DNA from: a virus
IMG/VR virus record: IMGVR_UViG_3300028800_000033
Span: 1 to 40,475 of that record
Reading direction: 5' to 3' (one strand)
Length of the DNA: 40,475 nucleotides
Positions 4,296 to 20,386 of this stretch are shown in pieces. The notes under the pieces were generated by a model that was not told where the DNA came from, searched no databases, and was given only the letters and a program-made list of their open reading frames with translations. Positions within the stretch are counted from its first letter, which is position 1. Each line of letters opens with the position of its first letter. The translations under genes were made by a program, and so were the position numbers.

Positions 4296-4513
4296 GCTGT
4301 TATTTCCTCATTTACTTCTGAATCTAAATTTTCTTCAGGTTCTTTAGATTGAGCTTCTTGTTGTTTTCTTAACGCATCTTCTATTTCCCCAACATGCTTA
4401 GAAAACTGAAATAGAGCTTCCTTAACATGAGGGAGAGGTGATTCGGTTTCACACATAAATTGATAAAGCTTGTTATCTATGATGCATTCTAATACTGATT
4501 TATTTTTAAGCAT
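4292..4513 (-). CDS. Hypothetical acidic helical protein, 73 aa
   Basis: The N-terminal half is mixed; the C-terminal half is a highly acidic, Glu/Gln-rich helix (EDALRKQQEAQSKEPEENLD). It lies between the 753-aa fibre and the 111-aa virion protein and overlaps the latter's start by ATGA. It could be a fibre assembly factor because small acidic helical proteins often follow fibre genes, but this is inference. Confidence 0.5.
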   Translation of the reverse strand: MLKNKSVLECIIDNKLYQFMCETESPLPHVKEALFQFSKHVGEIEDALRKQQEAQSKEPEENLDSEVNEEITA

Positions 4514-4525
4514 TCAATCCTCTTA

Positions 4526-6787
4526 TTAATTTGTTACCCAACCAATCACTGTTATATTTGCAGTTGTAGTAGTGGCTCCCACTCCATTTGTAAATGTCAA
4601 AGTAGAAGTTCCAGCACCATTTACAACGCTCTTTAAGCTTACAGCTGATCCTGTAGTTGCCCCAAACCATGTATACATGATCTGAGTATTAACCCCAGTA
4701 ATTGTTGAGTTATTCACTACAAGAGATTGATCAGCGTTAGCAGCAATTGATACACTACTGAATATTACTTGAAAATGCCTATTATTAGCTGTTTGAGGAC
4801 TTGCTCCAGCAGTAACAGCGGTGGGAGTAACTTTCAATCCGCCAACATTAGAGATTAAATCGGGTACAGTTACTGCACTTGATGTTATCGAAGCACCGGC
4901 ACCGCTTCCAGAAGCTGTATTAATAGTTAATCCCACGGCTGAGCCTGAAGCTAATGTATTTACTTGGGGCGCATTAACAACTAAAGAAGATGTCACTTGG
5001 CCAATCGTGATTACATGGGCGGCAATTCCTGTTCCTAAATTTATGGCACCCGCTCTAGTAGCCCCAGAGGCTAAAATATTTACTGTTTGTGTGCCGGCAG
5101 TCCCTGCGCCATTCATAATATTTAATGTATTATTAGCACCAGGTGTCGCTCCATTAAGAATATTTACTACGTTAGCAACCGTGTTTGAAGCCGCGTTATT
5201 AATAGCTACTGTCTGTCCAGCTGTTGATAATCCAATAGAGATTAATCCAGTTCCTAAGGCTGTGCCGATAGTATAAGTTGATGTCACAGCACCATTGACT
5301 AGGAAGTTTCCTGTTCCTACAGATAAGGTCATTCCAGTGGTTGAAGTGACATTACCAATTGCGATAGTGGTAGCCGCCAACCCTGTTGCTAGGGATAAAC
5401 TCTGTGTAGTTCCAGTTGAATTTCCTGTAAGAACGTTAACTGCATATGTCCCCGCTGTACCAACACCAGTCATAAGATTGAATGTCTGAGAAGCGCCAGG
5501 TGTTGCACCAGCCAACACATTAACTGTATTTGCGCCTGCAATTGTTGCTGCACTAGAAATATTAACGGTCTGACCAGCTGTTGAAGCACCCAATGTAATG
5601 GCCCCAGTCTGAGAAGCCGAACCAATAGCCATTGTTGCACCGGCAGTAGCCGTTGAAATAGTAAAGTTTCCACCTGATCCAACAACAATTCCTATAGCTC
5701 CAGCAGAAGTACCGCCAATAGTGGTAGTTCCTGCACCAGAGTTATTAATCAGTGTATTTCCTACAACTGTTAAGCCTGCAACTGTCAAAGTTCCGCTTGC
5801 AATAGTTGCCCCACCATTAAATGTAGCTAAACCAGTAAATGTTGAAGTAGATGTGACCGCAAGAGTTGATAAAGTCGTAAGACCGGTAACACCTAAAGTT
5901 AAGGTTATAGTCTGTGCTCCCGTTAGTGCTAGGGTTCCTGTAGCTGCAATATTTCCTGTGGCATTACCTATTAAAACGGCTCCTGTTCCACCTGTACCAA
6001 TAGTAGTTACACCGGCTCCTGAGGCGTTAATATTAGCAGTTCCAACTTGAGTCAATGCGGCTAATGTAGAGGTTCCAGTAATATTAATACCACCAGAAGA
6101 GACGGTCACATTTCCAGAAGTAGTTAATGTGCCTGTTAAGGCAGTATTTCCGGTTGCATTCCCTAGATTTAATGCTCCTGTTCCGCCGGTATTTATTGTT
6201 GTTACTCCGGCTCCAGATGCATTTATGCTTGCTGTTCCTACCTGAGTTACGGCTGCTAAAGTAGCCAAACCGGTAGCTGAAAGGGTTGTTGAAGCAACGG
6301 GTCTAGGAGTTGTACTACCAAAACCCCCAGCTGGAGGAGCTGCAAATACGGCAGCAATATTACTTACCTGTAAGGCTGTATTAGGATTTGGAGAAGTTCC
6401 AAGAACAGCATTTGCATCTGTTTCAAGATAAACATAACCTTGTTGCGCTGTAGTTGCTGGAACGCCTGATCCCGCTACTACGCCAGCAATAACTGTTGCT
6501 ACGTCATTGGATAGGGGTACATAAGCACCGGATGGGGCATTTCCATTCTGTAGTTCTGATAAGGTAGCAAGCCTAACCGTTCCTAGTGTAGTTGTAGTTG
6601 CTTCATTAGCTCCAGCTGTAGACCAAGAATAACCATTAAATACATATTCAACAGGAGATGTTGGGTTTGTAGTATCAAAATACTGCTGGCCAAGTTGACC
6701 TTTAAAAGAAGATGACGGAACTCCTTTCCCAGTTATTGGACTTGGAGCCACATTAACAAAGCCACCGATACCATATGCTAAACCCAT
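4526..6787 (-). CDS. Repetitive tail fibre protein, 753 aa
   Basis: A long Gly/Ala/Thr-rich fibre. An N-terminal domain (about residues 1-75: GQQYFDTTNPTSPVEYVFNG and YSWS) looks like a virion-attachment module. A segment LGTVRLATLSELQNGNAPSG is typical of phage fibre anchors. From about residue 170 it consists of imperfect repeats such as QVGTANINASGAGVTTIG followed by TGGTGAVLIGNATGN, roughly 66 residues (198 bp) apart near the N-terminal end. Further short AGQTVNI and NVLAGATPGA units follow. The last 90 residues are a different beta-rich domain. The opposite strand carries several long spurious ORFs because of the low stop-codon frequency of the repeats. Confidence 0.75.
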   Translation of the reverse strand: MGLAYGIGGFVNVAPSPITGKGVPSSSFKGQLGQQYFDTTNPTSPVEYVFNGYSWSTAGANEATTTTLGTVRLATLSELQNGNAPSGAYVPLSNDVATVIAGVVAGSGVPATTAQQGYVYLETDANAVLGTSPNPNTALQVSNIAAVFAAPPAGGFGSTTPRPVASTTLSATGLATLAAVTQVGTASINASGAGVTTINTGGTGALNLGNATGNTALTGTLTTSGNVTVSSGGINITGTSTLAALTQVGTANINASGAGVTTIGTGGTGAVLIGNATGNIAATGTLALTGAQTITLTLGVTGLTTLSTLAVTSTSTFTGLATFNGGATIASGTLTVAGLTVVGNTLINNSGAGTTTIGGTSAGAIGIVVGSGGNFTISTATAGATMAIGSASQTGAITLGASTAGQTVNISSAATIAGANTVNVLAGATPGASQTFNLMTGVGTAGTYAVNVLTGNSTGTTQSLSLATGLAATTIAIGNVTSTTGMTLSVGTGNFLVNGAVTSTYTIGTALGTGLISIGLSTAGQTVAINNAASNTVANVVNILNGATPGANNTLNIMNGAGTAGTQTVNILASGATRAGAINLGTGIAAHVITIGQVTSSLVVNAPQVNTLASGSAVGLTINTASGSGAGASITSSAVTVPDLISNVGGLKVTPTAVTAGASPQTANNRHFQVIFSSVSIAANADQSLVVNNSTITGVNTQIMYTWFGATTGSAVSLKSVVNGAGTSTLTFTNGVGATTTTANITVIGWVTN

Positions 6788-18421: not shown

Positions 18422-18859
18422 CTATACCAATCTGCCAGCATACAAGCTGGTAGAAAGAAGATTTCGGACAGCAGTATCCTGGGTCAAAGCTTGCGCCTGA
18501 GCGAACTTAACCGCTAAGGTAGCATTCTGAGCCAACATGCCTGAATAATATGGATCGCGATAAATCAGGTTCATTGAGTAGCCATCCTGATTAATATGCG
18601 TGATCGCTTGTTTACCCAATACGGTATTGTAATAAATATCATTACCGAGTGAGGAAACACCTCTTGCAACTGGTGCTTCAGAGGATGTTAATATCCGCAC
18701 ATTACCCACTGAACCATATTCAGAAGGTAAAGCAGAAGCATTTGTAGGATAGTTCCACTGACTTAGGAACGAAAGTGTTCCCACTGTTGTCAGTGTATCA
18801 AAATCCGTTTGAAGCTCTGTTGAAGATAGCATGAAATATGCACTTCTCACAGGGCCTGT
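18422..18859 (-). CDS. Major capsid protein, exon 2 (C-terminal 145 aa)
   Basis: The frame begins at ACA GGC CCT GTG (TGPVRSAYFML), which has no proper start codon or ribosome site. It is a natural continuation of the 182-codon frame ending DRFG at 19687. The region carries features of HK97-fold capsid proteins of the N4-gp56-like group: P-V-R-x-A-Y-F, then W-N-Y-P, E-Y-G-S-V-G-N-V-R-I-L and a YYSGMLAQNATLAVKFAQA end. The spliced product would be about 325 aa. In its unspliced form the 5' part of the gene would end 20 codons into the intron and capsid would be truncated. The downstream stop is 11 bases before the 403-aa gene start. Confidence 0.85.
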   Translation of the reverse strand, partial: TGPVRSAYFMLSSTELQTDFDTLTTVGTLSFLSQWNYPTNASALPSEYGSVGNVRILTSSEAPVARGVSSLGNDIYYNTVLGKQAITHINQDGYSMNLIYRDPYYSGMLAQNATLAVKFAQAQALTQDTAVRNLLSTSLYAGRLV

Positions 18860-18963
18860 CAATCTGTTACTTGTTGACCTACTAATATCTACTAATTAAT
18901 GTCAAATTAGTAGATGTAGGCGCCTTAGTCTTCTCAGCTAAGGTCTCTATATCTCTATAGAGT

Positions 18964-19167
18964 TCAGAGCACCGCATCTCTTTCCTTTTGAAGCTCTTCT
19001 ACAATTTCCATTCTTCTATCAAAACTTTCATCTAGAAATTGTCTAAATTCTTTTCTTGCTTGTTCAGGAATAGAGTCTTCTCGCTTGCTACGTTCAGCGT
19101 CTAATTTAGTTGACTTCGTATCAGTCAATCTGATATCATCTTTGTTATTACACATAGGTGACCTCAT
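18964..19167 (-). CDS. Possible intron-internal sense-strand protein, 67 aa
   Basis: An open frame in the 3' half of the intron on the capsid sense strand. Composition is protein-like and highly charged (RKEFRQFLDESFDRRMEIVE, then ELQKERDAVL), ending in a helix. Its ATG and the ATG of the oppositely oriented endonuclease share the palindrome CATG at 19165-19168. No clear Shine-Dalgarno exists for this ATG, though a second ATG 12 bases on follows AGGT. It could be a genuine small protein, a remnant of an earlier intron ORF, or chance. Confidence 0.3.
   Translation of the reverse strand: MRSPMCNNKDDIRLTDTKSTKLDAERSKREDSIPEQARKEFRQFLDESFDRRMEIVEELQKERDAVL
19110..19139 (+). promoter_or_regulatory. 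Sigma70-like promoter for the antisense homing endonuclease
   Basis: TTGACT (19110-19115), an 18-bp spacer and TATCAT (19134-19139) lie 26 bases before the endonuclease ATG at 19166. A start near 19146 would give a short leader containing GGTGA as ribosome site. This would let the gene be expressed independently of, and against, capsid transcription. Confidence 0.55.
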
Positions 19168-19600
19168 GAATCATAGGGAAAAATTGGCGTATCTTGCAGG
19201 TATCATTGATGGTGAAGGAAGTTTGTTGCTTTGGATGAATAAATCCTCTAGTAAAAGAGGTCAATTCAATCTTAGAGTAAATGTTACTTCCACAGATAAA
19301 TGCCTTGTAGATTGGATTTTTGAAAACTTTGGAGGAAGCATTTATGAATGCAATTCCCCTAGTAGACAATGCCAACCTAATTGGAAAAAACAATATGTCT
19401 GGCAAATTAATAGGCCAGAAATGTTGAGATTTCTCAAAGATATTTATCCATTTCTTATCATCAAAAAAGATAGATGCGTAATAGCAATTAAATTTAGAGA
19501 AACATTTGAAAATGGAAAACGCAATATCTCTCAAGAGACATCCGACATTCGCCTTAACTGTTTTAACCAAATGAAACATCTAAATTCCCGTGGTTCCTAA
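19166..19600 (+). CDS. LAGLIDADG homing endonuclease, 144 aa, antisense within the capsid intron
   Basis: The N-terminus YLAGIIDGEGS (residues 9-19) is the LAGLIDADG motif with its catalytic acidic residue (D15/E17 region). A single motif in about 145 aa indicates the homodimeric class that cuts a near-palindromic intronless target site. Following strands and the W-x-I-x-R / FLKDIYPFLIIKK segment fit the family. I start it at ATG 19166, after GGTGA; the frame is open further upstream but begins inside the promoter. It is oriented opposite to the capsid gene and the intron. It is therefore not translated from the capsid pre-mRNA, unlike most phage intron endonucleases, and its transcript would be antisense to the intron and perhaps exon 1. 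Confidence 0.85.
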   Translation: MNHREKLAYLAGIIDGEGSLLLWMNKSSSKRGQFNLRVNVTSTDKCLVDWIFENFGGSIYECNSPSRQCQPNWKKQYVWQINRPEMLRFLKDIYPFLIIKKDRCVIAIKFRETFENGKRNISQETSDIRLNCFNQMKHLNSRGS

Positions 19601-19686
19601 AAAAGTTCGCCCTTGTTGTCCTTCTATGCTGCCATAGTTAGGAGTTCCAAGTCCATCAGAGAAGATTTTAATTCGGCACACATTTT

Positions 19687-20226
19687 ACCGAATCTATCCA
19701 TACCTTCAATGCCAGACATAAACTTGTAGGCATTGTTTGTATCTAGCGTGGTTACAACCAAGCTAAAATCTGCGATACCCAAATTTGTTGGGTTATCCCC
19801 ATTACTGCCCGAACCGGCATTGATGTCCGTTGCGGCAGATACTAGGTAATCGCGTAAGATTAAATCCTCGGCTTGTCTCATCGCGACTGCCAGACGATCT
19901 GACACCCACGCTAACACACCCTCTTGGTCTTGCAAAATAACCTGTTCGTTAATAATGCAACCAGTTCCAAAAAAAGCCATTTCCGCATCAATAATATCTC
20001 TTTGCGGAACCTGTGCTGGAGGATCTATTCCTGAATTCCCCAACTGAACCGTTGGAGGCTGTAACGCCCGTGGGCGCATGAAACGACAAGTTGTTCCACC
20101 ATTTGGTGGCATACTAACTTTGTCGCAAACTGTGATGTAATTCATCATAGGCGTTGGAACATATAACATCGCAGGTGCTAAGCTCTGCAAAATCATAGGT
20201 CCTAGATTGCCTGTTGTTGTAAGCAT
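19687..20226 (-). CDS. Major capsid protein, exon 1 (N-terminal 180 aa)
   Basis: The frame encodes LTTTGNLGPMILQSLAPAM at the start and a segment NGGTTCRFMRPRALQPPTVQ typical of the extended N-arm and E-loop of N4-gp56-like HK97-fold capsid proteins. It ends GIEGMDRFG at the splice point; without splicing it runs 20 more codons to a stop. I prefer the ATG at 20226, six bases after AGGGA, over the ATG at 20232, which directly abuts it. It is preceded by its own promoter and a structured leader. Order portal, scaffold-like protein, capsid agrees with a podoviral head module. This is the main shell protein of the virion. Confidence 0.85.
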
Positions 20227-20386
20227 GTACATTCCCTGGTTGGAAATGTTAGTAAGATATGTTGATCGGTAGACGAACCTACTACGTCGTTTTCAATCAT
20301 ATCGCTTGTAGTGGCGAGCTACTTACGCCGAAATGGGGCGCGACTCCCTTACGCGAATGCCCTTAACGCTGGGCTAGCGAAATTTC
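20227..20386 (-). promoter_or_regulatory. GC-rich structured 5' leader of the capsid mRNA
   Basis: About 150 nt lie between the promoter and the capsid start. The part 20300-20380 is visibly GC-rich (by eye over 55 percent) in an otherwise AT-rich genome. On the minus strand it has short stems such as GCCC/GGGC and GGCG/CGCC and a thrice-repeated G-C-G-T-(T)-A-A-G motif. A GTAG/CTAC hairpin with a GTTCGT loop lies nearer the start codon. No ORF of note is present. It may stabilise or regulate the capsid message, but no known RNA family is recognised. Confidence 0.45.

Follow-up and report, generated by a model that had tools for sequence, protein, structure and literature searches.

What is the 827-nt insert that divides the major capsid gene of this phage, and how might an intact capsid protein be made from a gene so interrupted? 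The window, by which we mean the whole stretch of DNA analysed, is a 40,475-base virus record, from soil, of a virus of bacteria. Searches among GenBank phages found no relative of its capsid protein, and a host search returned six genome-bin matches, which are scattered over unrelated phyla and resemble binned phage contigs. An earlier note, made from the letters of the window, had proposed that the gene is split by a group I-like intron with a LAGLIDADG homing endonuclease encoded on the opposite strand. From comparisons with related loci (designated by L numbers), we conclude with high confidence that a mobile group I intron with an endonuclease, residing in a phage major capsid gene, is the best explanation of the insert.

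The interrupted capsid gene and its group I core

The capsid gene and its surroundings contain the following features.

19687..20232, minus strand: major capsid exon 1 (ATG start at 20232 or 20226; ends in DRFG; phrog_1357, 4e-05; homologues ~90% identical)
18860..19686, minus strand: group I intron, 827 nt (5' end AAAAUGUGUGCCGAAUU, 3' end CAGAUUG; assigned from uninterrupted homologues and L081, core covariation and the R1 model described below)
18422..18859, minus strand: major capsid exon 2 (from TGPVR to the stop codon; phrog_1357, 7.5e-05, in continuation of the exon 1 match)
20240..20385, minus strand: conserved leader RNA, structured, ahead of the capsid start and outside the intron

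The reading frame behaves as the earlier note had described, in that it stops 20 codons past DRFG (read-through peptide KMCAELKSSLMDLELLTMAA*, with the stop codon at 19624) and, after 827 nt, continues from TGPVR; a single PHROG major-head family is matched by both exons, over the adjoining profile positions 50-203 and 206-305. The alignment with intronless homologues that the note had suggested as a check was also run. We observed that DRFGTGPVR is unbroken in relatives, including L082 at the insertion site of the window, and that many IMG/VR relatives of 82-92% identity have an uninterrupted capsid gene. In L081 this site is occupied by the same intron, 782 nt long. In an unbiased set of 80 loci, for which C-terminal similarity was the sole criterion and introns were disregarded, 40 were intron-free, 39 had one or more full introns (150-1161 nt), and one that aligned poorly is in neither count; up to six inserts occur within one 970-nt capsid gene. 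The insertion sites at capsid codons 88 and 181 both read TTCGGT/ACAGG, and might share an endonuclease or guide sequence. The leader RNA has the form GATATGATC..GACGTA..TCGTCTACCGATCATCATATC with a covarying outer stem, is present in the same region of L001-L071, and has no Rfam match.

Within the insert, we located the following elements of a group I core.

19670..19677, minus strand: internal guide sequence GCCGAAUU (P1, 8 bp with the exon 1 end GATTCGGU, U.G at the splice site)
19678-19680, minus strand: P10 strand UGU, pairing with ACA of exon 2, 3 bp
19659..19665, minus strand: P3 5' strand UCUUCUC (partner GAGAAGA, 19076-19082)
19612..19651, minus strand: P4 (CUUG 19648-19651 / CAAG 19612-19615) and P5 (19641-19644 / 19618-19621)
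19608..19611, minus strand: P6 5' strand GGCG (partner CGCU, 19096-19099, across the endonuclease insertion)
19086..19089, minus strand: P7 5' strand AGCA (partner UGCU, 18968-18971)
18978..19075, minus strand: P8 (CUCU 19072-19075 / AGAG 18978-18981, long loop)

The 8-bp pairing of exon and guide with U.G at the splice site, the pairing of TGT with the first three bases of exon 2 and the intron-terminal G had all been claimed, and each was found in the window. For the P1 pairing of the window alone, p = 0.02 relative to shuffles. Among introns whose boundaries are fixed by homologues, 11 of 11 have a terminal G and a P1 of 6-8 bp whose last pair is U.G. Pattern searches of viral contigs yielded at least 100 related cores each, and 47 cores were aligned without structure information. 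In this alignment P3, P4, P5, P6, P7 and P8, all of which are present in the window, covary: 98.6% of cells are paired, sliding the strands lowers pairing to 48% or less, and 226 cells changed on both sides as compared with 58 in shuffles, a number reached in 0 of 500 shuffles, counts that overstate independence since the rows share descent. The group I-like character that had been proposed for the intron thus holds.

P7 is AGCA/UGCU in the window and ACUG/CAGU or ACUA/UAGU in other family members; among 97 introns that share the P7 subtype of the window, failures to pair in P3, P4 or P6 are very few. The P6 strands flank the endonuclease gene and differ in a compensating manner (window, GGCG/CGCU; L081, GCGG/CCGU; L082, GUCG/CGAU), so that the gene is located in loop L6 and the core is intact. 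A covariance model that was built from family cores without P7, and trained without introns of the window type (R1), detected three introns of L082 (each at E 3e-19 or better) and L072, an ORF-less intron of the window's P7 subtype (E 9e-17). On the window it scored the 5' half at 20.6 bits (E 0.003) and the 3' half, more weakly, at 11.3 bits; the halves are scored only separately because ~480 nt of enzyme gene lie between them. R1 gave no match to the introns of the phages LittleE or Baka, which are therefore not claimed as the same subfamily. Introns of the family also occur in an unrelated gene (..FRPHxDRNFVPIGGERQAVNQDAKPT..) in L204, L205, L218, L222, L224, L235, L246 and others, where the stop comes early and is not preceded by Ala-Ala.

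The Rfam group I covariance search, which the note had suggested as a check and whose failure it had named as a refutation, gave a different outcome: scans of the window and its relatives detected no intron, and Intron_gpI had no match to the window. As a control we used proven phage introns, and the same library scored T4 nrdB at 35.7 bits and LittleE at 30.7 bits, both below the gathering threshold of 50, and missed T4 td altogether. Because the library is insensitive to known phage introns, its miss on the window is not decisive, and an Intron_gpI match helps to detect such introns but does not define them; a 2025 study of phage introns also describes the Intron_gpI model as incomplete (PMC11878797). 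We place the window intron, as a new member, among the group I introns of phages; its lineage goes unrecognised by Rfam.

The Rfam result, together with a weak TTG start upstream of exon 2, could be accommodated by an account in which an endonuclease gene was merely inserted and the capsid is either split into two polypeptides or dead, with no splicing. We regard this account as very improbable, in view of the complete and covarying core with a P6 that pairs across the endonuclease gene, the presence of P1, P10 and the terminal G, the more than 20 capsid insertion sites used in relatives at which the joined exons restore the full protein, and the fact that a similar arrangement in LittleE splices. 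We give almost no weight to an intein or a ribosomal bypass element in place of an RNA intron: inserts of ~47 nt, present in relatives, are reminiscent of the bypass in T4 gene 60, but there is no open frame across the insert and the P1/P10 pairing covaries. For the short inserts themselves, bypass was rejected on the grounds that matching take-off and landing codons are lacking and that some inserts lie within codons (site 92).

For the group I intron, we propose that a core of P3-P8, including P7, would fold around the guide sequence, that guanosine would attack 3' of the U in GGU, and that exon 1 would then attack 3' of the terminal G. The ligated exons would encode an intact capsid protein.

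The antisense endonuclease gene

Two features are located on the strand opposite to the capsid gene.

19166..19600, plus strand: LAGLIDADG homing endonuclease, single-motif and I-CreI-like, in loop L6 (phrog_5046, 2e-23; I-CreI family PDB matches, best 2e-12)
19110..19139, plus strand: TTGACT-N18-TATCAT, resembling a promoter (26 nt from the endonuclease ATG, on its 5' side; AGGTGA precedes the start)

The plus-strand frame, from Met at 19166 to the stop at 19600, encodes a LAGLIDADG enzyme, as had been claimed; its motif is LAGIIDGEG and its closest PDB relative is I-CreI, while the score of Pfam LAGLIDADG_1 was under that model's cut-off. Comparison of the endonuclease copies of the window, L081 and L082 gave dN/dS of 0.06-0.28 in the antisense frame and an excess of third-position changes; judging from this substitution pattern, the frame is under purifying selection.

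With respect to the promoter-like sequence that the note had assigned to the gene, the element was located and its hexamers are identical in the window, L081 and L082, but matches in other family members are variable and significant in only some. The element also holds an inverted repeat, TTGACT..AGTCAA, whose arms differ compensatingly in L082, and which could be an operator or a hairpin of the intron RNA.

The antisense orientation had been considered rare. This proved wrong here. LAGLIDADG ORFs near family cores were collected by an iterative search with a motif requirement, and 42 of the 52 (~80%) are antisense, as are all 20 of the 20 ORFs that lie between the P4 and P7 strands (some rows being re-fetched copies of one contig); from these counts antisense orientation is the rule in this intron family, and it has a precedent in LittleE (2013). 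Unlike the ORFs in L6, those located 5' of the core in L088, L123, L146, L172, L233, L248 and L310 are sense. The I-CreI-like enzyme, antisense in L6, is probably transcribed from its own embedded promoter and would cut intronless capsid alleles, whose repair would copy the intron in. The window intron is a well-supported addition to a large family of phage introns which standard covariance models miss and in which antisense endonucleases are normal.

Ala-Ala ends and mini-introns

19624..19686, minus strand: in-frame exon 1 read-through, KMCAELKSSLMDLELLTMAA-stop (C-terminal MAA at 19627-19635, proposed degron)

A ribosome translating unspliced RNA would stop 20 codons into the intron. The peptide so made in the window ends in ..LLTMAA*, and this Ala-Ala end, which the earlier note overlooked, is systematic in capsid introns. 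When introns were translated in the exon 1 frame, Ala-Ala directly preceded the stop in 50 of the 63 full capsid introns that lie past codon 45 and have no mini-intron (described below) before them; in the other two frames, such ends occurred in 4 of 266. LAA accounts for 45 of all 80 Ala-Ala ends, and the protease component ClpX prefers a C-terminal LAA. At site 218, read-through of the L252 intron ends exactly in ..QYALAA*. Proven introns also end in this way (LittleE capsid, ..VATAAA*; Baka tail, ..DDLAAAAA*), and in T4 the td frame stops directly after exon 1 and that of nrdB ends in ..VSFA*, neither having an Ala-Ala tag.

Possibly, the Ala-Ala end comes as a by-product with conserved sequence of the ribozyme (GCAGC-UGA at P6, GC-GC-UAA in L5) and was not selected as a protein tag. 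In one intron type the Ala-Ala codons do overlap the conserved P6 strand, an open frame would give the AA end by default, and the rows are related. However, in the same RNA family the end is found in 5 of 30 introns of other genes as compared with 18 of 25 in capsid-like genes, which indicates that the RNA alone does not dictate the codons. Of 9 introns located before codon 45, from which only a very small fragment would result, 0 have the end. At 18 sites the spacer length offsets the codon phase, so that the exon frame meets the core in one register, and LittleE and Baka show Ala-Ala with a different core. We consider the by-product explanation unlikely, though it keeps appreciable weight, and the best reading of the comparisons is that the Ala-Ala end would act as an ssrA-like degron for the products of unspliced RNA. 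On this analogy, the C-terminal Ala-Ala probably marks the truncated capsid fragment of the window, ending in MAA, for proteolysis of the ClpXP type. If true, the Ala-Ala stop rule explains how the phage tolerates introns in its most abundant and assembly-critical protein, splicing failures being tagged for destruction. Among open-access papers, a search for ssrA-type tags in group I introns found nothing relevant, and an intron-encoded Ala-Ala tag seems to be a new feature.

In relatives, and not in the window, the capsid gene also contains core-less inserts of 29-68 nt at codons 88, 92, 104 and 114, which we term mini-introns.

L153:2836-2882, L191:5614-5660 and L082 near 4495-4540 (minus strand): mini-introns with P1, P10 and terminal G
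L141, L229, L197, L116, L120, L133, L158, L200, L270, L293 and L327-L401: further mini-introns with these three features (in all listed loci a full intron lies downstream)

Mini-introns break the frame or add a stop, and their removal is necessary to make the capsid. The 29 distinct examples have an exon 1 ending in U, an insert ending in G and a P1 of 6-9 bp, the U and terminal G having been required when ambiguous boundaries were placed. With the guide positioned by P1 alone, P10 totalled 146 bp, whereas 5000 permutations of exon 2 reached no more than 96; for site 88 alone, the values were 85 bp and 78. Among the unbiased set, mini-introns occur in 21 of 39 intron-bearing and 0 of 40 intron-free genes, and never without a full intron. 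A mini-intron is always found upstream of full introns at codons 97, 99 and 101, and in 12 of 13 genes for codon 122. The partner full introns mostly have their own P1. Two other kinds of gap, of 21 nt at residue 247 and of 54 nt in L076-079, are alignment effects and not mini-introns; L076 holds a full 216-nt intron.

The Ala-Ala end is missing from 26 of the 30 full introns that directly follow a mini-intron, some of which keep the frame, and is present in 26 of 30 mini-introns; for full introns with and without a preceding mini-intron, the difference gives a Fisher p of ~2e-9, which is indicative because the mini-intron rows are related by descent. Both the loss of the end from full introns that retain the frame and its occurrence in inserts that have no core argue against the by-product explanation. 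The simplest model of these patterns would have the mini-intron as a degron-bearing, non-autonomous intron that is excised by its neighbour's core. One idea is that it may also disrupt the cleavage site of the neighbour's enzyme.

In the aggregate, we lean slightly towards a two-tier group I system in capsid genes, as read from these sequence patterns, in which full introns would encode an ssrA-like tag that destroys unspliced products, and untagged introns would be preceded by a tag-bearing mini-intron excised by the neighbouring full-intron core. If true, no natural group I-type introns smaller than the mini-introns, and no earlier natural non-autonomous ones, are known to us; substrate and catalytic core would then be separate in natural group I splicing, which bears on the origin of split-part RNA-dependent splicing systems. 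A search of open-access papers found no description of such mini-introns, and they seem to be a new feature.

Comparison with known systems

The mycobacteriophage LittleE is a direct precedent, in which the architecture of the window was anticipated: its major capsid gene 13 has an 819 bp insert with group I hallmarks and an antisense LAGLIDADG gene, and splicing in vivo was demonstrated by RT-PCR and N-terminal protein sequencing (PMC3706429). The two phages share an intron in the major capsid gene, the antisense LAGLIDADG gene and a read-through ending in Ala-Ala, but LittleE has another core and another insertion site, and its endonuclease gene lies 3' of the P7 strand and not in L6. The td and nrdB introns of T4 are group IA introns with sense-strand endonuclease genes (I-TevI and I-TevIII). 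Like the window intron, they belong to phages, are of group I and house an endonuclease gene within the ribozyme; they differ from it in the strand of that gene and in having no Ala-Ala tag. I-CreI, from a chloroplast LSU rDNA intron, is related in sequence to the window enzyme and is likewise a single-motif LAGLIDADG protein, but differs in host gene, organism and orientation.

Nuclear rDNA introns of Didymium also contain an antisense homing endonuclease gene for which its own promoter is presumed (PMC9548176); they differ from the window intron in their location in eukaryotic rDNA, their His-Cys enzymes, the spliceosomal introns within the enzyme gene, and its placement at P9. For the mini-introns, the closest parallel is with engineered trans-acting group I ribozymes, or 'spliceozymes', in which the core removes a segment outside itself (PMC4094466, PMC6155759). 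A group I core would in both cases excise a segment that is not its own, but mini-introns are natural and carry the guide sequence themselves. The ssrA (tmRNA) tag, ..YALAA, is read by ClpXP. It resembles the intron ends in placing a C-terminal LAA on the products of failed mRNAs, a likeness that is closest in L252, whereas the intron tag would be encoded by the intron and not added by tmRNA.
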